Positions 12,305-30,116 of a stretch of DNA of 63,015 nt are shown here, one piece after another. The notes beneath the pieces are model-generated. The model saw nothing but the letters and a program-made list of their open reading frames with translations, was not told where the DNA came from and did not search any database. Source of the stretch: a virus. The translations under genes were made by a program, and so were the position numbers. The stretch spans positions 1-63,015 of the IMG/VR virus record IMGVR_UViG_3300009496_001865. One strand, given 5' to 3'. Position 1 is the stretch's first letter. Every line of letters starts with the position of its first letter.

Positions 12305-13085
12305 GTATTTCTCCAAACTTCCCATCTAACACATCAGCCATTTTGAATTGGCCTTTAGGAGAGAAATGATTATAATGATCATGATATTCAGGAGGTAGTT
12401 CTCTGTTTTCACCTATAACATAATCATCCATGCTATGTGCAAAATGCTGTAAGCATTTATATCTTTTATTATCATACTCAAACGAATAACATTCATCTTC
12501 GTATTCTGCTGTATGATAAAAACAATGGTAACTTTGATAACTTGTTATATTATGCCGTTTTATATAAAAGGCCCATGCATCTTTAATAGTTGTAAGTTGT
12601 CTTTGAGCCTCTCCTGTTGTTTGACCCCATGGTTTTAAATAAAGCCAGTAAAGTTCAATTGCTTGTCTTACTCTCTGGTCAAATCTTTTTTCATCCTTTA
12701 ATAGCGGAGTATCCGGTCCTGGTAGTGACATTTCACCTGGATGTAGGCGGTCTTCGAACTCAGGTCTTGATTTGTTAGATATAACTCCTGTAGATCTAAC
12801 TATTTGTCTTGTTTCATCACTCCAACAAAATACAAAATGTGTTTCATTTATATACTCTTGGCTGTTTGATGCAAGCCACTCTCTGAATTCATGTATCATC
12901 CAATTAGGACCATGGCCAGGAGTTCCGTTGTGAACTATTTGTAAATTATGTTTCTCTGCAAATATATCCATGTAACTAGGTGTTGGTGGGTAAAACAACG
13001 TATCAGTTCCATTAGATATTTTTCTAGATACTGTATCAAAACAGTAACTATCGCCAAAAAATGCTACTTTATCTATTTGAGGCAT
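12297..13085 (-). CDS. SGNH/GDSL-fold protein (copy 4, classical GDS)
   Basis: The protein has 262 residues and is the only copy with the classical GDS block (FFGDSY, near residues 9-14). PGHGPN supplies the GxxN block near residue 60, and DHYNHFSPKG near the C-terminus supplies Asp and His in the form common to SGNH hydrolases. It lies immediately downstream of five consecutive radical SAM genes, overlaps the first of them by 17 bases and overlaps copy 3 by eight. It is therefore likely co-expressed with both groups. Removal or transfer of an acyl group is the likely chemistry; the substrate is unknown. Confidence 0.72.
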   Translation of the reverse strand: MPQIDKVAFFGDSYCFDTVSRKISNGTDTLFYPPTPSYMDIFAEKHNLQIVHNGTPGHGPNWMIHEFREWLASNSQEYINETHFVFCWSDETRQIVRSTGVISNKSRPEFEDRLHPGEMSLPGPDTPLLKDEKRFDQRVRQAIELYWLYLKPWGQTTGEAQRQLTTIKDAWAFYIKRHNITSYQSYHCFYHTAEYEDECYSFEYDNKRYKCLQHFAHSMDDYVIGENRELPPEYHDHYNHFSPKGQFKMADVLDGKFGEIHG

Positions 13086-14373
13086 ACATCAGTTTCCATA
13101 ATTCAGGCAATGCCTCTCTCATTGACTCTTTGCGTTGCTTATCTAACATCTCAGTATATTTCTTAAAAGTATCTAGTTCCTGTTCCCAATTATCTTTACG
13201 ATTTTCTTTTAGTGCTTTTATTGTTGCTTCTATGCTTTGCTTATTCTCAGGCCTATGTGCAAGTATCTTACTACGTTTAAGCCATTGCTCTAATCTACCT
13301 GCGGCAACTTCTCTTACTTGCTCAGGACAGTTTCTAAAATCTAAACTTGTTGGATAATCGCATATTAGAAATGTTAAGAATATTTTTCTACCATATTCTT
13401 CTTCTAGTTCTTCTGCAAAGTCTAATAGTTTTGTAATAGTTAATACATTATATATTTGTATTACAGGACTAAACAATACTGTTCCAACAACATCACTAGC
13501 ACAATATGTTCTTAAGTTTTTCTCAACTCTGCTCCAATGACTTGCTCCTCTAATGTATTCATTTTCATGTCCATAAGCATCTACACTTATACACATTAAT
13601 ACATCTTTGAACTGCTCTACTAAATCTAAGAAACGTTTTTGTATGTTAGTCATGTTACTATTAAATACTAATTCTATGTCCTTAGCAATACCCATTTCCA
13701 CACATTTTTCCATAATCCAGTATACACGTTCTATGATAGTAGGTTCTCCGCCTGTGAAATAAAGTTTATTAACTCCTGGCAACCACTCTTCAACTTGTCG
13801 TAAAAATTCTGGATCATCTTCCCAATTGGTTATATTCTCAGCAAAATGGCCCCATGTAAAATTATCTCTAATGAACTGACCTGCTTCAGCATCAGCATTT
13901 TCTATCTTTACATATTCTTTGTTTATCTGTGAACTGTTTTGAGGTTGGCACATTCTACACTTCAGGTTACACATATTGCCAAGCCTAAAATCTAAATACA
14001 TTGGAGGATCTTCTACTCTATATCCATTCCTTTTACTTTTTTCAATCCTTTCAATAATCTCCTCTCCTCGATCACTGTATTCAAACCAGTCTCTGATGTA
14101 GTTTGTTCGATAACTCGGAAATCCCATATCCTCTAAATCATAACAATGTTCGCAACCTTTTACCACTTCGCCATCTAACATCTGCTTACGGATTTTACGC
14201 ATATGATTGTTATTCCAAACAGATTCTATGCGATCTCCTTTATTGAGGTCGACCATACTTCCATCATCGTTTTTAAAATTATCACGTGCAACACAGCACC
14301 AACTTAATGTTCCTGTAGGTTGGGTCATTACATGTATCCAGGGATACGGACAAAATGTTTTACTGTATTCCAT
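13069..14373 (-). CDS. N-terminal-twitch radical SAM protein A1
   Basis: The protein has 434 residues. The N-terminal twitch/SPASM-like module has FCPYPW (C8), a CC pair (26-27) and CxxC (74, 77) that would bind an auxiliary Fe-S cluster. The radical SAM core follows with CNLKCRMC (C135, C139, C142) for the [4Fe-4S]-SAM cluster and FTGGEP (208-211) for SAM. The order, auxiliary module before the core, is the reverse of usual SPASM enzymes and fits the 'N-terminal twitch radical SAM' family of marine phages. The tail has an ALPELWKLM motif like its paralogues. Reaction and substrate are unknown. It overlaps A2 by 14 bases. Confidence 0.85.
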   Translation of the reverse strand: MEYSKTFCPYPWIHVMTQPTGTLSWCCVARDNFKNDDGSMVDLNKGDRIESVWNNNHMRKIRKQMLDGEVVKGCEHCYDLEDMGFPSYRTNYIRDWFEYSDRGEEIIERIEKSKRNGYRVEDPPMYLDFRLGNMCNLKCRMCQPQNSSQINKEYVKIENADAEAGQFIRDNFTWGHFAENITNWEDDPEFLRQVEEWLPGVNKLYFTGGEPTIIERVYWIMEKCVEMGIAKDIELVFNSNMTNIQKRFLDLVEQFKDVLMCISVDAYGHENEYIRGASHWSRVEKNLRTYCASDVVGTVLFSPVIQIYNVLTITKLLDFAEELEEEYGRKIFLTFLICDYPTSLDFRNCPEQVREVAAGRLEQWLKRSKILAHRPENKQSIEATIKALKENRKDNWEQELDTFKKYTEMLDKQRKESMREALPELWKLMYASNR

Positions 14374-15523
14374 TCCAATACTCTCTTATAAATTCATATA
14401 GTGTAGGAAACGTTTCTTCAAAACTTTCCTTTCTATATGTATCTCCAAATTTAGTTGTATGAATAAACTGATAAAACTTATCAGATTCATAATGTTCATT
14501 GTTCATATAATCTAATGTTCTCTTAACATAATCAGGTTGGTTACCACTATAGAAGTTTAAGATCTTATTCTTTACTTCCTTAGGTAAACATTTTGCTGAC
14601 ATGTGTTTAGGTTCAAACACCATATTATAGTGAATGTGCATAGGCAAATTTGCTTCTACATATTCTGTTAATTCTTTTAAGTTACATATATTTAGTATAC
14701 CTATTGTTTGAAAAATTGAAAACTCTAAGTTTCCTTCTAATTTTGTAAACTTTTCTATATTTTCAAATACTTCTTCAAACTTTCCAGGATGCCTAATATA
14801 ATTAAACCTTTCATCTACATCATCTATACTAAAAAATATTTGCACCTTTTTAAAGTGTTTCCATAAATGAACTTTTTCTTCCGGAAACACACTACCATTT
14901 GTGTTATATGATAAATGAATGTTTTTTGCGTATCCTTTCTCTATACACTTTTCTAGTATATCAAAATGTCTTTCTATTAGTAAAGGTTCGCCGCCAAAGA
15001 ATTCAAATTTAACAATAGCATGTAGCATTGTATCAAGATCTTCCCAAAAGTCGTTGTTATGCTTAGGCCACATCCCCTTATGATTAAATGCAAGTATGCT
15101 GTCTTTCTTACTAGGGTCTATCTTTATTTCTTCTTTTGCCCATTGGCTACTTGCAAAAGTTGTGCAAATTCTACATTTACTATTGCAAATATTTCCTAGT
15201 TTTAAATCTAATGATGCAGGTTGTTCTGTTGCTTTTGGGTCTTCGAAGTCAAACATGGATCTATACCAAACGTTTTCTCTTTGCCTTTTACTTCGTATTC
15301 CTGCTTCTTCCTCATTCCAGCAATTACGACATGCTTCAGGTCTTTCGTCTCTTAAAAATGCTTGCCTGTAATTCTCTAGCCATTCACTATTCCATACTTC
15401 GCTAAGTGTTCCACCTTCTGCTAATGTAACTCCTGCATCGTCTTGCATTATACAACAAGGAGAAATAGTGCCATCAGTTCTAGCCTCTAAGTTTACAAAT
15501 GGTAATACACAAAAGTTTTTCAT
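14360..15523 (-). CDS. N-terminal-twitch radical SAM protein A2
   Basis: This is the shortest paralogue, at 387 residues. FCVLPF (C5), CC (23-24) and CRNC (65, 68) form the N-terminal auxiliary-cluster module. CNSKCRIC (113, 117, 120) and FFGGEP (GGEP at 177-180) form the radical SAM core. The C-terminus ends with TFPTLYEF, matching the shared tail motif. The start and the previous stop overlap as ATGA, giving strong coupling to A3. Pairwise similarity to its neighbours is clear but low, so the copies are old duplications and not recent ones. The substrate is not evident. Confidence 0.85.
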   Translation of the reverse strand: MKNFCVLPFVNLEARTDGTISPCCIMQDDAGVTLAEGGTLSEVWNSEWLENYRQAFLRDERPEACRNCWNEEEAGIRSKRQRENVWYRSMFDFEDPKATEQPASLDLKLGNICNSKCRICTTFASSQWAKEEIKIDPSKKDSILAFNHKGMWPKHNNDFWEDLDTMLHAIVKFEFFGGEPLLIERHFDILEKCIEKGYAKNIHLSYNTNGSVFPEEKVHLWKHFKKVQIFFSIDDVDERFNYIRHPGKFEEVFENIEKFTKLEGNLEFSIFQTIGILNICNLKELTEYVEANLPMHIHYNMVFEPKHMSAKCLPKEVKNKILNFYSGNQPDYVKRTLDYMNNEHYESDKFYQFIHTTKFGDTYRKESFEETFPTLYEFIREYWNGIQ

Positions 15524-16743
15524 AGTTTTGCTAACTCCGGAAAAACATCTGCAAAGTTTTCTTCACGTAAATAATCAAACTCAATATTGAACCGTCTAAA
15601 CTCATCAAACAGTTCTGTATGATCATCATCTAAAAATTGAATTGAACTTTTATATCCTTCTGTTGCCCTACCTATATGATCTCTAGGTTCAAGCCATGCT
15701 AAATGTTTTTGCCATTTGTATTTTATCTCTTCTTTAAATTCTGCAGGCAATACACTCATTCTAAAACGTGGATTGTTTAGCAATACATTCATATACCAAT
15801 CACCTGGTTTAATATATCCTTTATCTACCCAACTCTTGTGAAAGTCAGTTATGTGCCAGGCGTTGTAGGCACTAACAGTAGCACTCACATAAAAATCTAT
15901 CTCAGGTGATTCTTCTCTTAATCGTTGTATGTTGTTTTCAACATCTGCCCATACTGTTCCTTTACGTTGATACTCCCCTCTGGCCCCTTCTGCATCTAGA
16001 CTTGCACCTACACTTATATGACTAAAGTTTTTCCATAAGTCTAATATGTCATACTTCTTATATTTTAATGTTGTAAAGTTTGTATTATAAAAAATGCGTA
16101 TATCTGTTTTACCCATTTCTACTAACTTGTTCATTATACCCCAATGCTCGTCCATCATAATAGGCTCACCACCTGCCCAATATATTTGTTCTATGTGTTC
16201 TAGCATAGGTTCAAATTCTTCCATAAAGCCGTCTACGTCTTTGCGAATTTGTATAATTTTTTCTGTTGGTGTTATATTAAAACTGCTCTTCACAGCATCT
16301 TTAAACCAGTTACTACTAAGTTCGGGACCACAATATCTACAACGTAGATTACATACATTGCTAAAACGAAAATCCAAATAAACAATAGTCAAATCATCTA
16401 AACTACCATCTGCATTTGTTTTCTCTACTTTATCCCAATGAGGTTCTAACCAGTCTCTATTACTTCTTACCCTTAAACTGTCGTGACCTTTTTCTTCCTT
16501 TTCGTAACACCTTACACATTGTTTACATTTCTTGCCTTGCAACATATTAAGACGGACTTCTTTCATGTCTTTGCTGTTCCATACTTCTTGTAAACTATTT
16601 TCTCGTAGATCACCTATATGTGATTCCCATGGTGAGTCACAGCAAAGCATTGTTTTACCATTAGGCCAAGGGTGCATATGAATCCATGGCAGGATACACA
16701 TTACATCATCATCGTGATCTTTAATATTTGTGCTGAATTCCAT
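15520..16743 (-). CDS. N-terminal-twitch radical SAM protein A3
   Basis: The start is taken at ATG 16743. A GTG three codons upstream (16752) is an alternative. From the ATG, MCILPW carries C16, CC lies at 34-35, and a CKQCVRC stretch gives C73, C76 and C79. CNLRCRYC (131, 135, 138) and a WAGGEP motif make up the radical SAM core. The tail has VFPELAKL. Most twitch modules here have a single CxxC in the middle; this copy has CxxCxxC, so its auxiliary-cluster ligation may differ. It overlaps the 3' end of A4 by 23 bases. Confidence 0.84.
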   Translation of the reverse strand: MEFSTNIKDHDDDVMCILPWIHMHPWPNGKTMLCCDSPWESHIGDLRENSLQEVWNSKDMKEVRLNMLQGKKCKQCVRCYEKEEKGHDSLRVRSNRDWLEPHWDKVEKTNADGSLDDLTIVYLDFRFSNVCNLRCRYCGPELSSNWFKDAVKSSFNITPTEKIIQIRKDVDGFMEEFEPMLEHIEQIYWAGGEPIMMDEHWGIMNKLVEMGKTDIRIFYNTNFTTLKYKKYDILDLWKNFSHISVGASLDAEGARGEYQRKGTVWADVENNIQRLREESPEIDFYVSATVSAYNAWHITDFHKSWVDKGYIKPGDWYMNVLLNNPRFRMSVLPAEFKEEIKYKWQKHLAWLEPRDHIGRATEGYKSSIQFLDDDHTELFDEFRRFNIEFDYLREENFADVFPELAKL

Positions 16744-17959
16744 TATTCTCACATAGGATTATTAGTTCTGGAAATACTGCTCTCCAGCCACTTTCATGCC
16801 CTCTAATTTTATCTAGTTCATCGTTATATCTACAAAACTGTTCCCATTTTAATTCATCCCAGTCATCGTTATTAAACATACTTAATAATGTTCCTAGTTC
16901 ATGTTTATTGCCCATTGTTGTTCTAAACTTATCATGCACATGGCGTCTAACGACGGGAGGCAGGATTGCTGGTGATAGGTAATCAGGATCATACACAAAG
17001 TTCATGTCAACTGGACATGGTGCCCAATTTAGAAACTCGTCTAAGTAAATATAATTATAAGCACTCACAGTTTGCGTAATTCTTATTGTAAGTGTATCTT
17101 CTGCTAATAGGCTATCCAAGTTCTTAGTAACGTCTAGCCATTTTGTAGGATATCTAATAAAATGATTTCTAGTATCTAAACAGTCTATACTAGGACATAC
17201 TCTTGCTTCTTTAAATTCTTTCCATATAGGAATTGCTTCTGGTGGCAAGTTTGTCATGTTAATATTATACCACAGTATAATATTTTTACTTCTGCCACTC
17301 TTAACTAACATATCTAAATATTTCCAATGTGCTTTTATAAGTGTAGGTTCGCCACCATTAATATAAAGAACTTCCATATTAGGGGCACATTCAAATAAGT
17401 CGTTATAAAAATTTTCATCTTCCGGCCATTGAAAGTCGTGCTTATGGTCTAACCAACTGTATCCATCATTAACAAAATCTAACGAGTCAACAATTTCTTT
17501 ATAATCTTTAACCCACCTTGAACTACTTGCTGGATTACAAGTGCGACAGCGGACATTACATACATTACCAAGACGCAACTCGACAAAACGAAGATCCAAA
17601 GGTATGCTACCATCCTCACTTGTAAGTCGGGATGCGTAACTGGAGTCAAAGTCCGGATAAACCTGGGACTCGTGTTCTCGTTTACTCTTAATTCCTTTTC
17701 TTTCTTCCTGGTAGCATCTCTCACATGCTTTAGGCTCCACATCATTTAACATCTCCAATCTAATTTGTTTAAAATAATCACTGTTCATATGTTTGTTTAT
17801 GCTGTGATCATTTAAGTTGAAAAACTGGTCGCCATCCTCAGTAAAATCTCTTGCTCTATTTTTGCCAGCAGTCATATCAGATATGCAACAAGGTGTTACA
17901 CCGCCATGAGGGTGTGTTCCCAAGTGCATCCAAGGTAAAGGACAAAATGTTTTGCTCAT
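16721..17959 (-). CDS. N-terminal-twitch radical SAM protein A4
   Basis: The protein has 412 residues. FCPLPW (C6), CC (24-25) and CERC (79, 82) belong to the twitch module, followed by the CNVRCRTC core motif (134, 138, 141) and INGGEP (GGEP at 202-205). The tail motif VFPELIIL is present. The N-terminal 'H.G..TPCC' segment is the closest of the set to SPASM-type modules in peptide-modifying enzymes, but no precursor-like peptide gene is adjacent. Start and upstream stop overlap as ATGA. The function beyond SAM radical chemistry is unknown. Confidence 0.85.
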   Translation of the reverse strand: MSKTFCPLPWMHLGTHPHGGVTPCCISDMTAGKNRARDFTEDGDQFFNLNDHSINKHMNSDYFKQIRLEMLNDVEPKACERCYQEERKGIKSKREHESQVYPDFDSSYASRLTSEDGSIPLDLRFVELRLGNVCNVRCRTCNPASSSRWVKDYKEIVDSLDFVNDGYSWLDHKHDFQWPEDENFYNDLFECAPNMEVLYINGGEPTLIKAHWKYLDMLVKSGRSKNIILWYNINMTNLPPEAIPIWKEFKEARVCPSIDCLDTRNHFIRYPTKWLDVTKNLDSLLAEDTLTIRITQTVSAYNYIYLDEFLNWAPCPVDMNFVYDPDYLSPAILPPVVRRHVHDKFRTTMGNKHELGTLLSMFNNDDWDELKWEQFCRYNDELDKIRGHESGWRAVFPELIILCENNGIQHKY

Positions 17960-19278
17960 ATCACTTTTCCTTTTTCTAACGAACCGTATGTTGTCGGCTC
18001 TTTCTCTGCAAGTTTCATTTCTTTATTATACAAAAAATCATCTTTTACAATTTCCCAAAGTTCTGGAAAAGCCTGTCTAAAGTTTTCTTTTCTATACAAG
18101 TCGCCACTTACAATCTGCTGTCTAAACAAATTCCATCTATGAATAATTTCGTTTTCAACTGTATCAGTTACCGCAATTCCATACGGTCTAACTGTTTCTG
18201 TTCTTGGAGTTAATACAAATTTTATTATACCATTTAATTCTTTACGCAATGCTTCTCCTAGTTCTGCATCTTTTAAAGGTTTCACAATAGCAGGTTTCAT
18301 ATCTTCTGGAAATACACTTGGATTAAACCAAGTTGGGAATCTTGCTATGTTGTGATAAATTTTAAATGTAGGCCAACGTTCTCTAAAAATTTTATGAAAC
18401 TCTGCAAGATACATTACATTCATTGCTGTAATAGTATGGCTTATACCTATACTTGCTTGATGTGTTTCATTTAGTGAATGGAAATAATCTAAGTTTTTAC
18501 TTACTTCATCCCAGTCACCTCCGTGCCTAAGGTATTCAAATCGTTCCTTTGTAGCACCGTCTATACTTACATTAAATCCTACACTTGCAAAATTTTCTAT
18601 TAAAGTTTTTAAAAACTTTTTATTTGCAAATGTTCCGTTTGTGCATGTATTAAGGTGTATATTTTTTGCAACACCTTTTTCTACTAAAGTGTTTACAAAT
18701 GTTCTAAACTCCTTCATATAGAATGGTTCACCGCCCATTACTTCTAATTGCGTAATAGAAGGTAACCATTCATCCATAGTAGTCCAAAACTTTGAATTCT
18801 CAAAATCTAGTAAAGGAATATCAACAACTTCTTCGTTATATGGCATTCCTCTGTCTTTTGCTTCTTTAACCCACTTACTACTATTATGAGGGTTACAACT
18901 TCTGCATTTTAAGTTACAAGTGTTGCTCAAAGTTAATTGTATGTCTGCAGGCATGTCTGGTTCCTTTTCATAATTGATTGGACCATAACGTGCTTTTGCA
19001 TATTCATTATACTGTTCTCTTTTGCTTTTATTTCCGTTTGCTTCGTCTTGCCAGCAAGGAGAACAATTATCAGGCAGTTTACCATCTCTGATTTCCTGCC
19101 TGATATTTTGATAATATTCACTATGGAATATATCTTTTATAGAGTGCGAACCTAGTGTAACTTCTTTGCCGTCAGTATCATACACACGATCACGTGCTAT
19201 GCAACACGTTCTAACATGACCTAAAGGTTCATTGCTGATATGTTTCCATAACAGACTACAATATCTTGGTTCGCTCAT
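17956..19278 (-). CDS. N-terminal-twitch radical SAM protein A5
   Basis: The protein has 440 residues. YCSLLW (C7), CC (25-26) and CSPC (72, 75) form the twitch module. CNLKCRSC (121, 125, 128) and VMGGEP (GGEP at 182-185) form the radical SAM core. The AFPELWEIV motif is followed by a charged tail of about 25 residues not seen in the others. It is the first of the five consecutive copies to be translated, three bases after the UDP-sugar dehydrogenase stop. It is therefore probably on the message that starts at the late promoter before that gene. Confidence 0.85.
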   Translation of the reverse strand: MSEPRYCSLLWKHISNEPLGHVRTCCIARDRVYDTDGKEVTLGSHSIKDIFHSEYYQNIRQEIRDGKLPDNCSPCWQDEANGNKSKREQYNEYAKARYGPINYEKEPDMPADIQLTLSNTCNLKCRSCNPHNSSKWVKEAKDRGMPYNEEVVDIPLLDFENSKFWTTMDEWLPSITQLEVMGGEPFYMKEFRTFVNTLVEKGVAKNIHLNTCTNGTFANKKFLKTLIENFASVGFNVSIDGATKERFEYLRHGGDWDEVSKNLDYFHSLNETHQASIGISHTITAMNVMYLAEFHKIFRERWPTFKIYHNIARFPTWFNPSVFPEDMKPAIVKPLKDAELGEALRKELNGIIKFVLTPRTETVRPYGIAVTDTVENEIIHRWNLFRQQIVSGDLYRKENFRQAFPELWEIVKDDFLYNKEMKLAEKEPTTYGSLEKGKVI

Positions 19279-19281
19279 TCT

Positions 19282-20610
19282 CTATCTTAAAGCCTCATTT
19301 CTAGTGTTTCCGTAATGAACTACTCTAACACCTTCCATAGGCGGTAACTTTCTCCATGGGTCTAATACAATACTTCCTTGTGCAAAATTAAGTTCTGTGC
19401 CATTAGCAGTAGCAACTGTTAAAGCCTCATCGGCGCCAGTTACTCTATGCTCGTCATACCATCCTTTGACAAAGTCTAATTGTTTACCATATGTTATTTC
19501 TGGGTTATGTGCTATAAGATATACCGCAGGATTATCTAAAACATCCTGTAACGGTGTTTCTCCCATTACTTCATCTAAGTAATATAACTCATGACCTGCT
19601 TTTTCTATGTAGTGACCTACTAACATACTTGGTGACCCTGCATCATAAGGAACTAATGGTTTATATGCTTTACCTACAATTATAATAGGCATGCTTGGTA
19701 TTAAACCAAATGCTGGGTGTTGATCACCTGCATATTCTATTAACTTATTTGCCATATTTTTTGCTTGAACTTCTCTCGAAAGCATTACAGCATCAAATAG
19801 GTCATATCCTAAGTCTAGTTCTTCTGCCATCCAACGTAAAGCGATATTATCTCTGGGGTGACATGCACCACCATCGCCCATACCTGGTTTCATGTAACCT
19901 GGTCCCATAATACGTCTGTCTGAGTTTGCAAGTGCATCACATACAACTTCTGCGTTTATGTTACCTGACTTTTCTGCAACGTCTTGTATCATGTTTACTA
20001 AACTTACTTTTGCTGATATAAATGTATTATAAAATACTTTGATACATTCTGTTTCGTCCCATGTTCCGATAACGTAACGTGGTTCGTTTTGCATGATTGT
20101 TTTATAAAAGTCTACAAGTTCCAATGCGTCACCTGTTTCACTTCCATCTTCTGTGCCAATCATTACCATTTCTGGATTAACCATATCCCACTTGACTGTG
20201 CCCATAGCAATTAAGTATGGATTATACACAAATCTGGTATTGGTCATTAAAGGAACAAATTCCCTTCGCGTTGTGCCCGGGAGCACGGTTGATATAAGGA
20301 CGATAAGTTGCTCGTTTGATGCAACCTCATTTACTTGCGAAAGAACTTTCTTAACTAATGTATAGTCAAAGTCTTTGTTAGGTAAATGGCTGGTTGGTGC
20401 TTTGCCATCATATTGAGGATCGTGTGGAGTTTGAACTGCAACAAAAACAATATCTTGTCCTATTACAGCATCCTTAAGATCTGAAACCATTGTAAAGTTT
20501 TCAGGCTCTCTAGGCTCTACATCGTATCCTACAACATCATGGACCTCAGCAACCATTTCGGCGCAGGCTTGTCCTAACTTGCCTACCCCAATGAATCCGA
20601 TTGAGGCCAT
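19282..20610 (-). CDS. UDP-glucose/GDP-mannose dehydrogenase family enzyme
   Basis: The protein has 442 residues, close to the family length. The N-terminal Rossmann domain has GVGKLG (8-13) for NAD+. 'VQTPHDP' (59-65) and 'STVLPGTT' (107-114) are family landmarks. The catalytic Cys is C250 in GGACHPRD, and Lys191 lies in the conserved K-x-F-x-N stretch. These enzymes oxidise a nucleotide-sugar C6 alcohol to the uronate with 2 NAD+. The exact sugar (UDP-glucose, UDP-ManNAc, GDP-mannose) cannot be read. AGGAGAG precedes the ATG, and a GATAAATA promoter lies 40 bases upstream, so this gene opens a transcript. Confidence 0.88.
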   Translation of the reverse strand: MASIGFIGVGKLGQACAEMVAEVHDVVGYDVEPREPENFTMVSDLKDAVIGQDIVFVAVQTPHDPQYDGKAPTSHLPNKDFDYTLVKKVLSQVNEVASNEQLIVLISTVLPGTTRREFVPLMTNTRFVYNPYLIAMGTVKWDMVNPEMVMIGTEDGSETGDALELVDFYKTIMQNEPRYVIGTWDETECIKVFYNTFISAKVSLVNMIQDVAEKSGNINAEVVCDALANSDRRIMGPGYMKPGMGDGGACHPRDNIALRWMAEELDLGYDLFDAVMLSREVQAKNMANKLIEYAGDQHPAFGLIPSMPIIIVGKAYKPLVPYDAGSPSMLVGHYIEKAGHELYYLDEVMGETPLQDVLDNPAVYLIAHNPEITYGKQLDFVKGWYDEHRVTGADEALTVATANGTELNFAQGSIVLDPWRKLPPMEGVRVVHYGNTRNEALR

Positions 20611-20649
20611 TTTTCTCTCCTATTGAGTTTGTTGTATTAAATACAGTTA

Positions 20650-20657
20650 TATTTATC
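20650..20657 (-). promoter_or_regulatory. T4-like late promoter GATAAATA
   Basis: It lies in the 60-bp gap between the SGNH copy 5 stop and the dehydrogenase start. It would give a leader of about 35 bases containing the AGGAGAG ribosome site. It probably drives the dehydrogenase and the five radical SAM genes downstream. Confidence 0.6.
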
Positions 20658-20670
20658 GGGTTTGTTTTAT

Positions 20671-22159: not shown

Positions 22160-23562
22160 TATCTTTGATTATGCTTTTTATCTACTCGCATCCACCAATC
22201 AAATAGTTCAGAATCTTTTGCATAGATGTCTTGTATTCTAAGTTTTTCTTTTGGTCTTATTTCTGCAATTTTATCCTGCCAGCCTCTACCATTAAAGAAA
22301 CTGTCTTCATGTTGATCAGGCCATTGTTCTTCAAATGTAGGAGTAATTTTCATATTCTCCAATTCGTTAATTAGTGTTTGCTGTTTTTGTGTTGCTCTTG
22401 GTTTTATGTATTCTAAATTTTCGTCTATAATTCTATTAAGTATATGTCTTGGCCAAGCCATTGCACTCATTACAATATCAGGATGGAAAGCGAACATGCG
22501 TTTTGTTTCTATTTTAACATCTAGTTCTAATGCGTAATCAAAAAAGTTTTTGAGATCAAACATACCGGGACCTGTAAGTGTTAAATCCATTAACATTTTG
22601 TCATTACCACCTGGCAATGCTACACCTTCTCTAAAGTTTTTATCCCACTCTTCCCAATTGAGCCCTGTTCTTATAAACTCGCCTATATCTCCTGTGCCGT
22701 CTATACTTGCACACATGGTCCAGTCCTTTGCTTGTGGTAGCCAATCATACAGGTAATGCTTACCAAATCTAACTCTGCTAAGATTACTATTGTATCTTAA
22801 ATGAACTTTATGTAAATTATTATCTTGTGCAAGTCTATCCATAGACTTCCAGTGTATATCATACATTAGTGGCTCACCGCCTACCCAATATATTTCCTCA
22901 ACTGTTCCTGATTTAATGTATTCCCAAAACTCTTCTTCAACTACTTCCTTCTGAAAAGTCTCGATGACCTCCTTGTTCTCAGGAACCATAAACGGCTGTT
23001 GTTCCGGAGTCCAAAGGTCATGCTTTCTTTTTTCTGCCTCCCATGTTGAGCTGAGAGGTTCGCCGCACATACGGCACTTAAAATTACACAGGTTACTGAC
23101 CCGGTAATCAAAAGAAATTGGTTCCATAGTAGTATATCCATCATCATTTGTATCCTCAAAACATTTATCAATTTTATTTTCGAATAAGTATCCTGTAAAC
23201 CATTGACGGTATGTGCTTTGGCTTAGAATACTATCATTACATACTGCACATTGTGGTATTTCCTCACCGGCCATAAGTTTCTTTCTTATGTCCATCATGT
23301 AAGGTGAATTCCAATGTTCTTTTAAACTTATTGGTTTATAATCTTCTATTGTTCCTACGTCTTTATATTTGCCAGTGCTCTTATCATTACTAGCATCTAT
23401 ATACTGACGTTGCATCATATGTTCTTCTCTACTAGCACAACACATACGTCGTTCTGATTGCGGACTAATATAGGTATGAGTCCAAGGAGCCGTGCAGAAA
23501 ACTTTGTTCTCTGAGTCGGGGCTCATTTGTCCTCTTTCCCATTTAGGTTTTATTCTAGCCAT
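22159..23562 (-). CDS. N-terminal-twitch radical SAM protein A6
   Basis: The start is set at Met 23562 (not 23568) because it gives the eight-base ATGGCTAG overlap seen elsewhere. The protein has 467 residues: FCTAPW (C23), CC (41-42), CAVC (105, 108), CNFKCRMC core (159, 163, 166) and VGGEP (GGEP at 228-231). It has a longer insert between twitch and core than A1-A5 and lacks their FPEL tail motif, ending in a basic helix. It stands alone between the sulfotransferase and the NeuB-like gene, so it may act in a different step from the five-copy array. Confidence 0.84.
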   Translation of the reverse strand: MARIKPKWERGQMSPDSENKVFCTAPWTHTYISPQSERRMCCASREEHMMQRQYIDASNDKSTGKYKDVGTIEDYKPISLKEHWNSPYMMDIRKKLMAGEEIPQCAVCNDSILSQSTYRQWFTGYLFENKIDKCFEDTNDDGYTTMEPISFDYRVSNLCNFKCRMCGEPLSSTWEAEKRKHDLWTPEQQPFMVPENKEVIETFQKEVVEEEFWEYIKSGTVEEIYWVGGEPLMYDIHWKSMDRLAQDNNLHKVHLRYNSNLSRVRFGKHYLYDWLPQAKDWTMCASIDGTGDIGEFIRTGLNWEEWDKNFREGVALPGGNDKMLMDLTLTGPGMFDLKNFFDYALELDVKIETKRMFAFHPDIVMSAMAWPRHILNRIIDENLEYIKPRATQKQQTLINELENMKITPTFEEQWPDQHEDSFFNGRGWQDKIAEIRPKEKLRIQDIYAKDSELFDWWMRVDKKHNQR

Positions 23563-24319
23563 TTGCAATCTCTAATTGGTTCATGTTAATAAAGAAGTCG
23601 TAAAATTTCTTAGGTGATAATACTGCTCCTTCTGAGTCGTCATCTCCTAGAAACTTTTCTATAAAGTCTATATTTTTAAATACTACAGCACAATCGGGGA
23701 ATATATCTTCACATCTTCCTTCATATCCGACACCGACATGTGGTCTACTCTTATATTTTTCTAAAACATCTAAATTAAGTTCCTCTATTTGAGGAGGAAA
23801 TTTAGGAGTGGAGTGATATAATTTTATTCTCTTTTTATACTTTGGTTTATCTAGTATTGTTAATAATCTATCTATTAACTCATCGTTGCCACCATAAGTA
23901 ATCCATAAAAAATTATTTGCAACAAACTCTACTAATCCTTCATCATCTCTGGAATTGTAATGTATTTTTATTTCTTCTGTTCCTGTATGGTCCTTAACCC
24001 ATTGGGCAGACTCTACATCAGTTACACTCCATTTTAAAGGAATGCCTATTTCATCTACTAATTTTAATATTTTTTGACATGTAAATTCATCTATCTCACT
24101 ACGTTTAGCAACTTCTAAATAAGGCAATGTTCCCCATTTAGAATCCATTTTAATATATTGTTGATTGGGCTGAATTGCAAGGTGTGGTGTAGACTTAGAC
24201 AGCACTACAGCATCAGCATTACATTGTGCCGCGGCAATGATCCTTTTTTCAAGGATACTGAAATCATTTTCGTGTCCTATGCTAATGTTTGCATATAATT
24301 CTATATCTCGTTCTCTCAA
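23555..24319 (-). CDS. NeuB-like TIM-barrel paralogue, degenerate
   Basis: The protein has 254 residues from a TTG start overlapping the preceding stop (TTGA), with GGAGAT just upstream. Its first strand and helix (ISIGHENDFSILEKRI) parallel the EIGINHNGD region of the true NeuB encoded two genes upstream, and later strands follow the same layout. However, the Glu, Asn and His that NeuB uses near the N-terminus are altered, and the usual EKHFT and DxxxS regions are missing. It also ends without a SAF domain. It may be an accessory barrel or a changed-specificity aldolase. It could also be unrelated at the level of activity. Confidence 0.55.
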   Translation of the reverse strand: MRERDIELYANISIGHENDFSILEKRIIAAAQCNADAVVLSKSTPHLAIQPNQQYIKMDSKWGTLPYLEVAKRSEIDEFTCQKILKLVDEIGIPLKWSVTDVESAQWVKDHTGTEEIKIHYNSRDDEGLVEFVANNFLWITYGGNDELIDRLLTILDKPKYKKRIKLYHSTPKFPPQIEELNLDVLEKYKSRPHVGVGYEGRCEDIFPDCAVVFKNIDFIEKFLGDDDSEGAVLSPKKFYDFFINMNQLEIANG

Positions 24320-25134
24320 TTTTTATCTCCGTAAAAAGGAATTAAATCTTGTTCTTCTGCTCGAAGTCTTGATATATTTCCGCTAATAGGTGCGGTAATA
24401 ATGTATATACCTTCTTCTTGCATAATCTTTGACCATATAAGTGGACTTTGAATACTAAATTCAGAATCTATTTTAATATCCATTGCTTTTCTTATTACAT
24501 ATTCTATATCTAGATTTTTTAGAATACTAAATGCTTTGTTATTCATTGTCCAACTAAAGTCGTCAAAGGAAGCACCATGCATTGGGTCTACCATTCTTAA
24601 TGGTGACCATACTATAGGTTTAAGTTCCATTACTCTATTATCAAGTTCATCTTGATTTATTAATAGGCTTTCTAAGTTATCAGGAACAAGTTGTCTCCAT
24701 GTTTCCTGATCTGTTGTTTGTTTAATCGCATGCCAAGTCCATCTTCTTAAATCTTTATACTGTTTATGATCCTCTGTAAAGAAATTAAGTATATCACTTT
24801 GATATCCAATGTCTGTTCGTGTTCTAAAATAGTAATCGTATTCACCTTCGACTAATTTAAAACTTTTTAATACTGTATAAAATTGTGCAAACTCATATCT
24901 AAGTTTATCAGATGTAATATTTCTGTATTGCTTATATTTGTCAAAATGATCTTCATACTTTTCTATTTCTATAGTAGCATCAGGAAAGAACTTTTGTAAC
25001 TTGTCCCAATGAGGATTGTGCTCATGTTCCCATGTATGAAAATAAAAATCTTTATTTGCATCTGCAAATGCTTTATTAAGATGAGTCCTTTTCAGTTTCC
25101 TGCATTGACCACTTCCTATAATAGCAAGTTTCAT
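24316..25134 (-). CDS. WavE-like glycosyltransferase
   Basis: The protein has 272 residues. The N-terminus MKLAIIGSGQ precedes an 'FHTW' strand (residues 32-35) and a Y-Y-F-R-T-R-T-D-I motif (residues 101-109), which is the hallmark of WavE/capsular GT-like proteins, where the [KR]xRxDI segment holds the nucleotide sugar. It sits between NeuB and its barrel paralogue, so nonulosonic-acid transfer is a tempting guess without direct support. ATGA overlaps with NeuB upstream. Confidence 0.6.
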   Translation of the reverse strand: MKLAIIGSGQCRKLKRTHLNKAFADANKDFYFHTWEHEHNPHWDKLQKFFPDATIEIEKYEDHFDKYKQYRNITSDKLRYEFAQFYTVLKSFKLVEGEYDYYFRTRTDIGYQSDILNFFTEDHKQYKDLRRWTWHAIKQTTDQETWRQLVPDNLESLLINQDELDNRVMELKPIVWSPLRMVDPMHGASFDDFSWTMNNKAFSILKNLDIEYVIRKAMDIKIDSEFSIQSPLIWSKIMQEEGIYIITAPISGNISRLRAEEQDLIPFYGDKN

Positions 25135-25961
25135 CTCATTTTCCTCAAATTTTCTTTTTCACAATCTAAAACACCTTCTCTAACACCCAATGTTTTTTCT
25201 AACATTCTAATTGTGCCTACTAGTTCTGACATGTCTTGTGGGTCACTACTAGCACCTTGATCAGTTCCCCACATCTCCTTATCTAATGTGAAGTGTCGTT
25301 CTAACCAATCTATTCCTTTGTAAACACTTGCTGATGCACTAATAACATTCTGTTCATGACTGCTATATCCATAACTGTAACCACTATGTTTGCTTTGCAT
25401 CCAATCTATCGTATCCATTCTTAATGTATCTAATTCTGCAGGATATGAACTTACTGTATGCATTAATACTAGTTTATTTTTATCCGTTGCTGATTTAAAT
25501 AAATTACAAATATTTTCAATCTCAGTCTGTGTTGTCATTCCTGTGCTTACTATTACTTTTTTATATAGGTCTTTTGCTGTTTTAATCAATTCTAATTCTG
25601 TTGCTTTAGCACTAGGAATTTTAGTAAGTTCATTACTAAAGTTTTCATGCATAAATTTTAAACTATTAATATCCCATACACTTACAAACCAGCCTATGCC
25701 AATGTGTTGACAAAACTTATTAATTATGTTATAATCATTAAGTCCAAATTCTATTCTATGTTTGTATTCCAAATATGTCATATCTCCCCATGGGGTAGAC
25801 TTAGATTGATTTTTTTGTAGTTCAGGCACACAAATATCTGGATCACGTTTTTGAAACTTAACATAATCGGCGCCGGAATCTTTAGCCGCCTGTATCATTT
25901 CTAAACATTTTTCTATATCACCGTTGTGATTTATTCCGATCTCTGCTATAATATTAACCAT
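25131..25961 (-). CDS. sialic/nonulosonic acid synthase (NeuB family), lacks SAF domain
   Basis: The start is taken at Met 25961, which gives the eight-base ATGGTTAA overlap with the cytidylyltransferase stop; the frame is open to 25994. The protein has 276 residues with AEIGINHNG (6-14), KFQ (35-37), an H-T-V-S-x-Y-P segment, GYSSHE, ERHFTLDK and DQGASSDP, all diagnostic of the NeuB aldolase barrel that joins phosphoenolpyruvate to a ManNAc-type sugar. Typical NeuB has about 350 residues with a C-terminal antifreeze-like SAF domain, which is absent here. The product should be a nonulosonic acid; which one is unknown. Confidence 0.88.
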   Translation of the reverse strand: MVNIIAEIGINHNGDIEKCLEMIQAAKDSGADYVKFQKRDPDICVPELQKNQSKSTPWGDMTYLEYKHRIEFGLNDYNIINKFCQHIGIGWFVSVWDINSLKFMHENFSNELTKIPSAKATELELIKTAKDLYKKVIVSTGMTTQTEIENICNLFKSATDKNKLVLMHTVSSYPAELDTLRMDTIDWMQSKHSGYSYGYSSHEQNVISASASVYKGIDWLERHFTLDKEMWGTDQGASSDPQDMSELVGTIRMLEKTLGVREGVLDCEKENLRKMR

Positions 25962-26643
25962 AAAGTTTTGTCCAATAGTGTGTGTATAATTCAAACTGCC
26001 ATTCGTAATCTATGTCTAAACATTCAAACTCAGATACTTCAAATAGTTTAGGATTATTTTTGCTATATGGAGGTCTGCCCATCCATACACCATTTTTAAT
26101 TTTATCTAATTTACCTGCATATAAAACATGGCCTGCTTCGTAGATAGTTTCTACTGCTTTGGTATTCATTATGTTATTTCCAATTGGCCATTTTGAGATT
26201 AAATTTCCTGCGGTATCCCAAAAGTATTGTTTCTTTGGTATAACTGCAAACTGTCCATCATAAGGGTTAGTAAGATACTCGTCTATAAAATTATCTATTG
26301 TTTCTACTTCTAGGAATAAGTTACAAGCATTTATAAGTATTGCATACTTGTATTGTGGAAATTGATCATGCCATTCGTATATCTTCTGCAAACTTGTGTC
26401 ATTGTTTGCACTCTCAACACTTCTCTTGTAATGCTTTACACCATTGTTATCGCATATATCTATAAGTTCTTGTTCGCATACACTAGCACGGAATTGTTCT
26501 AAGGGTATTTTAGATTTCTTAATTTTTTTAAGTGCAATATCAAATAAGTTTGTGCCTGCAAAAGGCCTAATCATTTTTTGAGGTGCTCGTTCGCTATTAA
26601 CTCTTGCTTGAATTATAAAAAGTATATCGTTTAGATTTTTCAT
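25954..26643 (-). CDS. cytidylyltransferase-like protein (NeuA/SpsF type)
   Basis: The protein has 229 residues. IIQARVNSERAPQKMIRPF (from residue 10) is a diverged form of the nucleotide-binding P-A-R-x-G-S-[KR]-x-x-x-x-K loop of acylneuraminate cytidylyltransferases, and CLDIDYEW near the C-terminus matches their D-I-D metal/end motif. NeuA activates the nonulosonic acid as its CMP derivative, and its place directly before NeuB supports that. The middle is quite changed, so nucleotide and sugar specificity are uncertain. It overlaps the previous radical SAM stop (ATGA). Confidence 0.75.
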   Translation of the reverse strand: MKNLNDILFIIQARVNSERAPQKMIRPFAGTNLFDIALKKIKKSKIPLEQFRASVCEQELIDICDNNGVKHYKRSVESANNDTSLQKIYEWHDQFPQYKYAILINACNLFLEVETIDNFIDEYLTNPYDGQFAVIPKKQYFWDTAGNLISKWPIGNNIMNTKAVETIYEAGHVLYAGKLDKIKNGVWMGRPPYSKNNPKLFEVSEFECLDIDYEWQFELYTHYWTKLYG

Positions 26644-28307
26644 TCATCTTGTGCCCCGCCTAGGCCATCTGTTTCTGTATCCCAACCTATACTACTACCA
26701 CCTATTTTTTTAAGTAAATTCTTTCTTGCTTCTGGGTCTAAAGGATTATCATACCATTCATCGCTTTCACCTGTCTTGCGACCTCGCATTTTCATTTCAA
26801 CAACTTTAACTTCACCATCTTCTGAAACTACACGTTTTGCAAATAAACCATCTTTGACTCCAGCAGTTTTAGGTGCTTGGACTTCTTCGTTCGGATCTAG
26901 TTCCATAACTTTTATATTGTCATAAAAGTCTGCTATTCTAGGAAATGTTTCTTTAAAATTCATAAATCTTCTTGCATCATATTGCTCATAAAATACTTTA
27001 AAATCATGTTCTAATAATGTTCTGTCAGCAGTATTTCTATGAGGCGTTTTAACAACATCTAAGTATTCTATTAATCTACTTAATTGATCTTGTTCCCAAT
27101 CTGCTAATAGCAATCTACCTTCTGAATCAACTTCTGCTTTTCTTCTAACATTTTCTAACCATGCTTGTAATTCGTCATGATATAGTTTACGCAAATTATC
27201 TGGCAATGTAAGTGGACTTTGGAAACTAGGAAAACGTAATATGTTTACACTTATGCCTGGTTTGTTGTGACCATACTTGCGTTTCATTTCTAAAACCCAA
27301 TCTAAAAATTCTGTTATAGAATCTAGACACAATGCATTAATAGTCATCATCATATGTAATCCTTCTATTCGTGCTTCTTTACATATACGTTCAAACTGCA
27401 TAGTCCATACGTCCCACTTTAATCCATCTCTAATGTATTCTGCTTGTTTACCATATGCTTCACAACTTGTATATAAATGAAAGTGATTAATGTGCTGAGT
27501 TGATTCAATTAATTTATTAAGTAATCCTTCTTTAGCCATTAAGTTACTGTTAATAGCAAGCCTCATGTGTTCTTTATTTGGTTCATCAGTTGTTTCAAAC
27601 CAATCAAACAATTGATAAATGTCCGGAGTCATTAATGGCTCACCGCCTGTAACACGAATCTCTTCTAATTCTTTACTTAGTTCAGGCCACCATCTCCAAA
27701 ATGCATCTTTGTAAGGATTTGTTTCTAAATCATCAAAAGGCTCGGCATATGGTGCGTCATCAATAAAGTGACCTCTTGCGTCGGACTTAATACCTTGATA
27801 TCCTCCGTTGTTCCTAATATCTTTTACCCATGTGCTACTAAATGCAGGGTTACAATAACTACATGCTAATTGGCATGTTCTATTAAAGGCAACTTCTAGT
27901 GTTTTTAAATTTACATCTGTGCTTGTAGGCATAGCGGCCGCTTTACGCAAATCGTTGTCTTGGTATATTACTGTTTTGTATGTTCTATCTGATACAGGCT
28001 CGTTACCATCTGCATCTTTTTCCATGTCTTCAATTTTCCAACAGTATTCACACTCTTTGGGTCTCTGCCCATTGATCATCATTTCACGCATTTTCTTTTT
28101 ATGCTTTGTGTTATGAATTGCAGATGGATTGGTTTTAATTTCTTCTAAATCAATTTGGTGTGCTGGAGGGTGATGACAACTTGTAGTTCCGCCATGGCCT
28201 AACCATATAGTAGCATTATACCATTTAGCACCACAGAAGGATTCTGAAACAGGATCAATCATCCTTGCTTTAAATTCTCTGTGAGTTTCTCCGGGTTTTC
28301 TACTCAT
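26640..28307 (-). CDS. N-terminal-twitch radical SAM protein B1 (CHH variant)
   Basis: The protein has 555 residues, the longest copy. In the twitch module, FCGAKW carries C25, the usual CC pair becomes CHHPP (C44), and CEYC lies at 86 and 89. The core is CQLACSYC (145, 149, 152) with TGGEP (GGEP at 221-224). B1 and B2 share HPPxHxIDLEE, an HNTK segment and inserts missing from A1-A6, so they form a second subfamily. The FPRIADFY tail motif is followed by about 100 extra charged residues with no known domain. ATGA overlap with the DUF2693-like gene. Confidence 0.85.
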   Translation of the reverse strand: MSRKPGETHREFKARMIDPVSESFCGAKWYNATIWLGHGGTTSCHHPPAHQIDLEEIKTNPSAIHNTKHKKKMREMMINGQRPKECEYCWKIEDMEKDADGNEPVSDRTYKTVIYQDNDLRKAAAMPTSTDVNLKTLEVAFNRTCQLACSYCNPAFSSTWVKDIRNNGGYQGIKSDARGHFIDDAPYAEPFDDLETNPYKDAFWRWWPELSKELEEIRVTGGEPLMTPDIYQLFDWFETTDEPNKEHMRLAINSNLMAKEGLLNKLIESTQHINHFHLYTSCEAYGKQAEYIRDGLKWDVWTMQFERICKEARIEGLHMMMTINALCLDSITEFLDWVLEMKRKYGHNKPGISVNILRFPSFQSPLTLPDNLRKLYHDELQAWLENVRRKAEVDSEGRLLLADWEQDQLSRLIEYLDVVKTPHRNTADRTLLEHDFKVFYEQYDARRFMNFKETFPRIADFYDNIKVMELDPNEEVQAPKTAGVKDGLFAKRVVSEDGEVKVVEMKMRGRKTGESDEWYDNPLDPEARKNLLKKIGGSSIGWDTETDGLGGAQDE

Positions 28308-28555
28308 TTGCTTTCCTCTTTTGGCATTCCTTCATACCATTCTATTATAGTATTTATTCTTACATCACGCCAACCCTTTTTATCTAGGGCATACATAACT
28401 ACATTATCCGGACTATTATATGCTTTTATTTGCATAGTCTGTTTATGTATGTCTTTATTTAGTGTGCATGGCATTGTTCTAATTTCACCTGTGTCAATTT
28501 TTTCAAACACAACTGTGACTATTCCTTTAAACAAACTGTCTATTAATTGTTTCAT
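28304..28555 (-). CDS. DUF2693-like small SH3-barrel protein
   Basis: The protein has 83 residues with a strand pattern of 'VTVVFEKIDTGEIRTMPCTL' and 'NVVMYALDKKGWRDVRINTI', typical of the small phage family DUF2693 (SH3-like barrel, widespread in T4-like phages, function unknown). It is fitted by ATGA overlaps on both sides between B2 and B1. It therefore travels with the B-type radical SAM pair and may be a partner of theirs, although the family elsewhere is not tied to radical SAM genes. Confidence 0.68.
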   Translation of the reverse strand: MKQLIDSLFKGIVTVVFEKIDTGEIRTMPCTLNKDIHKQTMQIKAYNSPDNVVMYALDKKGWRDVRINTIIEWYEGMPKEESK

Positions 28556-30087
28556 ATTAGTGCATCTGCTTCTTTACAAATATTCCACCAGTCTTCTATT
28601 TCGGGAAACTTTGACAAGAAATCAGTATTACGTCTTTCATCATGTTGCGTAAAAAATCTATAAAAGTTTGCTCTTGCTTTAAGAAGTTCGTCTTTATCCA
28701 TATTAGAACCTGCTTTCATCCATTCTAAGTTTCTACGAACTTTATCAATTTCAAAATCTTTGAACCCTCTATAGTCTATATTTACTTCATCTGCTTGATT
28801 CATCTCCATGAATACGATAGCCTCTTCTAAGTAATCCTGATAGTATTCTGGCATAATTTGTATGCATTGCCAAAGAGGTGCTCTTAGTAATGGAATATCA
28901 AACCAAATACGTTGTTTAGGTCTTACTTCGTAATCATCATGTTTATGATCGCCGTTATCTGGAATAGGTATATATTTTATACCCTGTCTATCTTTTGCAA
29001 ACTCGTCCCTTAAATCTAATATCCATTGTAAATAATCACGTAAACTGGGTAAACTTAATATATTAAATGTATTAATAAATGTTATTGTTGAGTTATCTGT
29101 TTCGGTTAAAATTCTTTTAACATTTTTTTGTAGTAGTGAGAAATCCATACCGTTACGCATATACTCTGCTTGAGAACCGTAACCATCTACACTTACAAAT
29201 GTGGCAAAGTTCTTACATGCTGGTGCTACATACCAGTTGTTCCCTGAGTTTGGATTAAACTTTTCTGGGTCTTCCCATATTTGTATTTCTTCTAATCTTT
29301 GTAGCGATTCTATAAACATATCCATAAGCACTGGCTTAGGTGGACACATATTTGAAGTCACTGAAATCTCTAACCAAGCATTTGGATTTTGATACACATA
29401 GTCTAATACTTTAAAAGTATTACTGTCCATCAATGGCTCGCCGCCAGTCATACGAAATACTTCTAATGACTTATACATTTCAGGCCACCATTTCCAAAAT
29501 GCTGTAAGATATGGATTTTCATCTTGTGCCAATTTCAATGGCATAAGTCCTGCGTTGTTTAAACTTTCTAAATTGTTATGCTCTCCTTGAGCAATTTGAT
29601 AAGGGCCATGTTCTTTTATTTCTTTGTGCCATGATGTTGATAAATGAGGTGAGCAGTAACTACATTTAAAGTTACAGGCTTGATTAAAGTTTACTTCTAC
29701 ATAACGTGGATTTATATTTCCGTCTGCACCTGCTTCTGCTATTTCTTCTCTGGCATTTTGTGCCCAGTATTCACCACTACGATATACACGATCACTTCTG
29801 CCGCCTACATCTTCTATACGCCAGCAGTAACTACAACCTTCTGGTCTCTCACCTGCTAACATTTGTGCTCGTTGCTCTTTCTTTTCTTTTGTGTTATGTA
29901 ATGCTGTAGGATTATCAGCAAGTTCTTCTAGATCTATTTTGTGTGTAGGTGGATGATAGCAACTGTGAGTCATGCCGTTATGCATGTGCATAGAAACCTG
30001 GGTCCATTTTGCATAACACATTGTTGGACTTATAGCATCTAATTGTTCTTTGGCCTTGTCAGCGGCCTGATCGTATATGCTAGACAT
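28552..30087 (-). CDS. N-terminal-twitch radical SAM protein B2 (CYH variant)
   Basis: The start is set at ATG 30087, since AGAGAGG lies eight bases before it; the two codons upstream are GTG. The protein has 511 residues. MCYAKW carries C24, CYHPP replaces CC (C43), CSYC lies at 85 and 88, and the core is CNFKCSYC (138, 142, 145) with MTGGEP (GGEP at 215-218). KFPEIEDWW ends the protein in the shared tail style. It is clearly sister to B1. Having His near the auxiliary Cys suggests different cluster ligation from A-type copies, but only by inference. The gap to the upstream gene is 29 bases. Confidence 0.85.
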   Translation of the reverse strand: MSSIYDQAADKAKEQLDAISPTMCYAKWTQVSMHMHNGMTHSCYHPPTHKIDLEELADNPTALHNTKEKKEQRAQMLAGERPEGCSYCWRIEDVGGRSDRVYRSGEYWAQNAREEIAEAGADGNINPRYVEVNFNQACNFKCSYCSPHLSTSWHKEIKEHGPYQIAQGEHNNLESLNNAGLMPLKLAQDENPYLTAFWKWWPEMYKSLEVFRMTGGEPLMDSNTFKVLDYVYQNPNAWLEISVTSNMCPPKPVLMDMFIESLQRLEEIQIWEDPEKFNPNSGNNWYVAPACKNFATFVSVDGYGSQAEYMRNGMDFSLLQKNVKRILTETDNSTITFINTFNILSLPSLRDYLQWILDLRDEFAKDRQGIKYIPIPDNGDHKHDDYEVRPKQRIWFDIPLLRAPLWQCIQIMPEYYQDYLEEAIVFMEMNQADEVNIDYRGFKDFEIDKVRRNLEWMKAGSNMDKDELLKARANFYRFFTQHDERRNTDFLSKFPEIEDWWNICKEADALI

Positions 30088-30116
30088 CACCACAGCCTCT
30101 CTGCTTAAATTTCATT

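Follow-up and report, generated by a model that had tools for sequence, protein, structure and literature searches.

A pathway usually contains one, two or three radical SAM enzymes. What, then, does a phage do with eight of them in one region, and do the eight belong together? We addressed these questions in a 63,015-nt stretch of viral DNA (IMG/VR record IMGVR_UViG_3300009496_001865), referred to here as the window.

Eight intact radical SAM genes

The eight radical SAM genes in the window are open, uninterrupted and on the minus strand. A1 (13069-14373; 434 aa), A2 (14360-15523; 387 aa; overlapping A1), A3 (15520-16752; 410 aa; overlapping A2), A4 (16721-17959; 412 aa) and A5 (17956-19278; 440 aa) are consecutive. 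A6 (22159-23568; 469 aa) is apart from these, and B1 (26640-28307; 555 aa) and B2 (28552-30093; 513 aa) form one clade in the tree. An in-frame ATG at 30087 is the end given for B2 previously. The gene coordinates and the B clade agree with the original prediction, made from the DNA sequence alone, of six A-type copies (five consecutive and one apart) and two B-type copies.

All eight proteins matched the family model NF033640 (N_Twi_rSAM) from end to end at 301-400 bits (E = 1.3e-89 to 8e-120; curated whole-protein cut-off, 170 bits). The scores were 360.5, 354.1, 400.5, 349.4, 308.1 and 301.1 bits for A1 through A6, and 313 and 322.3 bits for B1 and B2. Chance can be excluded because there was no match above the family cut-off in 14 control genomes. 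The eight genes are thus intact paralogues encoding N-terminal-twitch radical SAM enzymes, as had been proposed.

The motifs were also as described: in all eight, a cysteine-rich N-terminal twitch is followed by C-x3-C-x2-C and then GGEP, the motifs of the radical SAM core. The A-type N-terminus has C-x17-CC with C-x2-C further on, and the B-type has C-x18-C-x41-C-x2-C. That is, a four-cysteine twitch precedes the core, a trait of NF033640. PF04055 was detected in seven of the eight enzymes and was above its cut-off in five. Among 43 sequences, the only invariant cysteines were the eight of the twitch and core; none lay past the core, where a SPASM domain would carry its additional auxiliary clusters, and we found no such domain in this set.

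The twitch module, that of A3 included, matched that of BtrN in sequence (E = 4e-4), with all four ligand cysteines aligned. This likeness was confined to the twitch domain and the E-values were modest. An AlphaFold2 model of A3 (pLDDT 94.2) had a radical SAM fold in a structure search. The top matches were peptide-bound anSMEcpe and the sactipeptide synthase CteB. Nearby folds also included BlsE, viperin and MoaA; DesII ranked 41.

Conservation of the array among phages and bacteria

We found an ordered array of about eight distinct radical SAM enzymes in large uncultured, mostly marine phages. The viral comparison set comprised 55 dereplicated groups; an alignment of all eight sequences was too diverse to serve as a locus-search query. 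The array is not a collection of scattered copies: each of the eight genes, including A1, A2 and A5, has its own orthologous lineage across related viral contigs. The order B2-B1-A6-A4 was kept in 41 of 42 testable cases, and this quartet was on a single strand in all of them (42/42). Most neighbouring pairs (172/246) were at most 30 nt apart. Count, identity and order were thus conserved in many phages, the outcome named originally as one that would support a pathway. Some phages had extra or shuffled A-type copies, and one (G026) had 19 family matches. The NF033640 model is silent on arrays, order and function; here, up to eight sub-lineages of the family occur as a set.

Complete ligands were present in 541 of 555 viral enzymes, as in A1, A2 and the other copies in the window, and purifying selection acts on each of the eight genes (dN/dS 0.04-0.16). 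Judged from these sequence data, all eight enzymes are likely active, as originally suggested. Pairwise identity among the eight is 20-31% and their lineages are ancient; we therefore rejected gene dosage or recent duplication as the origin of the array.

Among cultured phages, A3 matched only Vibrio K566/K567, A4 matched these and one marine single-cell contig, and B2 had no match. Vibrio phage K566 has six copies of the enzyme. Bdellovibrionota chromosomes carry homologous arrays made of the same enzyme lineages. We found no sugar pathway genes adjacent to the Bdellovibrionota arrays.

Tail and sugar genes around the array

The array is in a region with tail genes. A baseplate wedge gene (55159-59340, minus strand; phrog_10646, 1055 bits), with its nearest cultured homologues in PA5oct-type and Atu_ph07 jumbo phages, is by its sequence the mark of a T4-like jumbo myophage. 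A gene for a tail-fibre-like protein (36339-38273; phrog_19602 tail fiber, E = 4.5e-13), also on the minus strand, is a conserved neighbour upstream of the array, and tail genes were upstream in all groups with enough flank (7/7). When two phages of 250 and 608 kb (G014/G031) were compared, their longest collinear block consisted of the array, tail genes and a glycosyltransferase gene. Glycosyltransferases are linked to virion genes at this locus. We considered a 5403-aa ORF adjoining the baseplate wedge gene as a radical SAM substrate and set it aside, as nothing singled it out. An A-type iron-sulfur carrier was present in six of nine large records.

Sugar genes were the dominant neighbours, found near the array in 50 of 55 viral groups; three of the five groups without a known sugar gene are short contigs. 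Of the two outcomes that would have refuted the original proposal, scattered copies lacking carbohydrate genes and loss of cluster ligands in most homologues, we saw neither in phages.

The constant partners (all on the minus strand in the window, as are the microprotein and variable genes below) are a GT-A-like gene, two GT8-like genes, and genes for a UDP-glucose/GDP-mannose dehydrogenase, a carbamoyltransferase and a methyltransferase. The candidate GT-A-type glycosyltransferase (30117-31115; 31/55 groups) is directly upstream of B2 and has an invariant DGDN. An ortholog matched Glycos_transf_2 (E = 0.003), and the protein model (pLDDT 88.6) had weak Foldseek matches to glycosyltransferases or nucleotidyltransferases, including the PBCV-1 capsid glycosyltransferase and SunS. 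The single protein had no match among PDB sequences, and a search with its profile brought up nothing beyond ankyrin-type noise. One GT8-like gene (31789-32652; invariant D96/D98) had a profile match to glycogenins (E = 2e-5); the ortholog of the second (33323-34222), at 157588-158472 in G014, falls in the same cluster. A 1099-aa protein (6694-9993, minus strand) consists of repeated units like the 30117 product, and its relatives cluster with that gene; its last unit resembles Glycos_transf_2 (PF00535, a weak match at E = 0.037).

The dehydrogenase (19282-20610; PF00984, E = 2.5e-18; PF03721, E = 1.6e-14) is 78-84% identical in relatives that have one. The O-carbamoyltransferase (9995-11515; NodU/CmcH type; PF16861, E = 4.6e-53; PF02543, E = 8.6e-37) was found in 25 of 55 groups, and the methyltransferase (6035-6706; PF08242, E = 2e-4, below cut-off) in 14 of 55. 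The start of the carbamoyltransferase gene has a 4-base overlap with a gene for a 58-aa microprotein (11512-11688) whose C-terminus is KKDPFIYR, and the same ending adjoins the carbamoyltransferase in many other groups. This DPFIY microprotein was the one recurrent small ORF, and it tracks the carbamoyltransferase, not the radical SAM enzymes. No small ORF resembling a RiPP precursor beside the arrays tracked the enzymes; an 83-aa ORF between B1 and B2 (28304-28555; phrog_1086 match) was beside few arrays.

Other neighbours vary. They include DUF6071-like (20671-21498; PF19547, E = 5.7e-6, below cut-off) and sulfotransferase-like (21473-22159; PF03567, E = 0.0013, below cut-off) genes, neither conserved, and variable sugar genes: NeuB-like (23555-24319; PF03102, E = 1.6e-12), GT-like (24316-25134), NeuB (25131-25994; PF03102, E = 6e-60) and CMP-sugar synthetase-like (25954-26643; PF02348, E = 1.2e-10). 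The full NeuB/GT/CMP-sugar set (23555-26643) was retained only in G002. The sugar neighbourhood described originally therefore held in general, but its sulfo and nonulosonic-acid genes were not conserved. In another lineage, a GT7 galactosyltransferase gene adjoins the first radical SAM gene. An unassigned GT10-like cluster was also present among array neighbours.

Possible functions of the array

The array probably serves to build an unusual sugar coat. We put roughly even weight on a specific form of this reading, in which the eight genes form the heart of a pathway that tailors a phage-made glycan by stepwise oxidation and is encoded in a tail/host-recognition island. The two GT8-like proteins, the GT-A-type protein and the repeated GT-A units would assemble the glycan, and each ordered enzyme, with a presumed order of action, would have its own target, a distinct position or residue in the glycan or its sugar precursor. 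The CxxxCxxC cluster would cleave SAM, and a hydrogen atom would then be taken from the substrate. The four-cysteine twitch cluster at the N-terminus would accept the substrate electron. The net result would be a two-electron oxidation that might convert an alcohol to a ketone or be coupled to epimerisation or elimination. The dehydrogenase, carbamoyl- and methyltransferases would complete the product; the sulfotransferase, NeuB and others may be lineage-specific decorations.

BtrN oxidises a cyclitol alcohol, and two-electron oxidations go with fully ligated low-potential auxiliary clusters (PMC9012708). BtrN (2-deoxy-scyllo-inosamine dehydrogenase) shares with the array enzymes a radical SAM core and a single four-cysteine twitch cluster. 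In contrast to the array enzymes (387-555 aa, in arrays), it is ~250 aa and its twitch is C-terminal rather than N-terminal. Therefore, the array enzymes may work like a BtrN-type dehydrogenase without being members of that group.

Several findings argue against this reading: the Bdellovibrionota arrays have no adjacent sugar pathway, peptide-modifying enzymes (anSME, CteB) are among the best fold matches of A3, the BtrN likeness is modest and limited to the twitch, and five viral groups have no known sugar gene. It is possible, if doubtful, that the enzymes instead make radical changes (oxidised Ser/Cys, cross-links or epimers) at several tail-fibre or baseplate sites, which neighbouring enzymes then glycosylate. 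The constant upstream tail genes fit this, and the glycosyltransferases could target protein, with SunS among the weak matches. However, anSME and the sactipeptide synthases, the nearest solved folds, have a C-terminal SPASM domain, further auxiliary clusters and peptide substrates, whereas the array enzymes have no second motif. In addition, UDP-glucose dehydrogenase and carbamoyltransferase are sugar enzymes, and no conserved small precursor-like ORF accompanies the enzymes, which still allows a distant or large substrate.

A glycan pathway might also alter the host surface polysaccharide rather than the virion, masking receptors or excluding superinfection. Such a role was proposed for glycosyltransferases in pelagimyophage host-recognition islands (PMC7029224), and a part in receptor biology would also agree with the linkage to tail genes. 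We consider this unlikely, as the location within the tail/structural block favours virion decoration, if not conclusively. That the genes are independent cassettes with unrelated single-copy roles, sharing an island by chance, would fit the extra and shuffled A-type copies and an island termed hypervariable (PMC7029224), but is very unlikely given the conserved order, co-retention and near-zero spacing. To hypermodification of DNA bases we give next to no credence. Phage DNA hypermodification systems with carbamoyl- and glycosyltransferases are known, but there was no TET/JBP match above cut-off in the nine large records, and the array is in a tail block and occurs in bacterial chromosomes as well.

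If the glycan reading is right, a viral precedent is capsid glycosylation in chlorovirus PBCV-1, in which virus-encoded glycosyltransferases make an unusual virion glycan. We know of no radical SAM array in PBCV-1, and its glycan is on the virion, a placement that is proposed for the array phages. Previously, 12 radical SAM genes were noted in a 183-kb T4-like environmental viral genome (PMC5332604), and radical SAM cassettes with glycosyltransferases, and UDP-glucose dehydrogenase among LPS-type genes, in the pelagimyophage tail island (PMC7029224). Those reports mention the radical SAM genes in passing and the island was seen as hypervariable; here the genes form an ordered orthologous array. 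In the literature we found neither the ordered array, nor its deep orthology, nor its bacterial counterpart described.

Up to eight paralogues, kept in order and under selection in viral records of ~200 to 600 kb and matched by a chromosomal counterpart in Bdellovibrionota, suggest a novel multi-step radical chemistry. Tentatively, the pathway could be ancient and could have passed between jumbo phages and Bdellovibrionota. Its product might be a new class of polymer, a glycan or glycoprotein oxidised or epimerised at many sites, displayed on phage tails and on or within bacteria of the predatory type. If the array decorates tails or the host surface, it bears on host recognition by uncultured jumbo phages. 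The enzymes themselves are compact, confidently modelled and open to experiment.

Conservation of the radical SAM array

We found that the minus strand of the window, a 63-kb viral contig of IMG/VR, contains eight intact genes (A1-A6, B1 and B2; 13069-30093), all matching NF033640, the N-terminal-twitch radical SAM family model. The motifs CxxxCxxC and GGEP occur in each of the eight, as do the N-terminal ligands. Gene calls, NF033640 matches and a motif check bore out the copy number, the division into A- and B-type forms and the coordinates of the original prediction. The nearest cultured homologues of the baseplate wedge encoded in the window (55159-59340; phrog_10646 match, 1055 bits) are in jumbo myophages, e.g., PA5oct, SCTP-2 and Atu_ph07 (36-39% identity). 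A single ORF of 5403 aa (38944-55155, minus strand) adjoins the wedge gene.

Pairwise identity among the eight enzymes is only 20-31%, indicating that they are old paralogues. A tree of 146 proteins, drawn from 20 contigs (the window plus 18 viral contigs and one cultured phage), placed every one of the eight with orthologs from other phages. Lineage profiles across 55 dereplicated viral groups gave the recurrent reading B2 B1 A6 (A5) A4 A3 A2 (A1). We tested order in the 42 groups that have at least three of B2, B1, A6 and A4. Order was kept in 41 and strand in all 42; loci were retrieved via B2 or A4, so the presence of these two is biased and the order is not. Adjacent enzyme genes overlapped or were no more than 30 nt apart in 172 of 246 pairs. 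All ligands were retained in 541 of the 555 copies from viruses and in 46 of the 48 from bacteria, and dN/dS lay between 0.04 and 0.16 in each of the eight genes. Whole records (at least 40 kb) mostly had 4-14 copies, with a maximum of 19. One 66-kb viral contig (G026; L033, L069, L070) has 19 NF033640 matches, several of them highly divergent.

The N-terminal-twitch family is already catalogued. Twelve radical SAM genes were counted in a T4-like environmental genome (PMC5332604), and radical SAM cassettes with glycosyltransferases were recorded in a tail island (PMC7029224). In the literature searched, we found no earlier description of such an orthologous array with its set order, of the purifying selection on it, of its linkage in phages of different size or of its homologue in bacteria.

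Tail and sugar genes around the array

A 250-kb phage (G014) and a 608-kb phage (G031) share 93 reciprocal best hits. Their longest stretch of collinear genes (13, with a mean identity of 43%) passes from tail genes through the radical SAM enzymes to a carbamoyltransferase. This conservation was unexpected, as it is at odds with the description of the island holding the array as hypervariable (PMC7029224).

The recurrent layout is a tail fibre gene, a 119-aa gene, two GT8-like genes (profile match to glycogenins, E 2e-5) and the GT-A-like candidate at 30117-31115 (minus strand), followed by B2, B1, A6 onward. A UDP-glucose/GDP-mannose dehydrogenase family gene (UGDH) lies inside the array, and genes for a carbamoyltransferase, a protein of repeats resembling the 30117 product and a methyltransferase lie downstream. 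The model of the 30117 product (pLDDT 88.6) had weak fold matches, consistently to glycosyltransferases or nucleotidyltransferases. Confidently sugar-related genes were present in 50 of the 55 groups, and of the five groups lacking them three are short contigs. In G014, the sole full record examined, there were no GT-A, GT8 or carbamoyltransferase homologues outside the array block. One further UGDH homologue lies beyond it, beside an N-twitch-like radical SAM gene (236623-238384; L204).

Other neighbours vary, with lineage-specific genes in the window for a sulfotransferase, NeuB and a CMP-transferase. In another lineage, the array opens with a radical SAM gene that is overlapped by a gene for a GT7 galactosyltransferase carrying a fused Laminin_G_3 lectin-like domain (L168, 3632-5047; L163, 2277-5110), and after the array comes the tail sheath gene. 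In the window, a 58-aa microprotein gene (11512-11688, minus strand; C-terminal KKDPFIYR) overlaps the carbamoyltransferase start by 4 bases. A Pfam search gave it no credible match; the identical ending recurs next to the carbamoyltransferase gene in many viral groups. A 1099-aa protein (6694-9993, minus strand) is built from numerous degenerate copies of a glycosyltransferase-like unit.

Twitch module and possible chemistry

The first 86 residues of the A3 profile align with the C-terminal twitch of BtrN (E 4e-4; four of four ligand cysteines). Therefore, the module is a twitch relocated to the front, N-terminal in the array enzymes whereas it is C-terminal in BtrN. The BtrN cluster, with four cysteines and a low potential, accompanies a two-electron oxidation; this also holds for SuiB and PqqE, whose clusters are low in potential, whereas it does not for the open-site cluster of MoaA (PMC9012708). 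On this basis, we infer that the array enzymes catalyse net oxidation.

A3 was modelled with confidence (pLDDT 94.2). Among the solved structures closest to it in fold are anSME, CteB, BlsE, viperin and MoaA; DesII ranks lower. Thus fold alone does not decide between a sugar and a peptide. Considering the neighbouring genes too, we give an even chance to the leading candidate, that the enzymes act on a glycan or on the sugar precursor of one. An A-type iron-sulfur carrier is present in six of nine large records, in agreement with PMC5332604.

A counterpart in Bdellovibrionota

A Bacteriovoracaceae MAG contig reads B1 A6 A4 A3 A2, then B2 B1, flanked by obg/rplU and lgt, and its enzymes cluster with phage lineages. 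We looked for an adjacent sugar pathway at the Bacteriovoracaceae and other Bdellovibrionota loci and found none. Beside B-type genes in Bdellovibrionota is a gene (L091, 15697-16659; L107, 8148-9125; L106, 5321-7408) that has no Pfam match and that we read, from an SDxDL motif, as putatively nucleotidyltransferase-like. Of the 29 genomes that have this gene, 28 also have NF033640 genes, compared to 55 of the 192 Bdellovibrionota genomes sampled overall.
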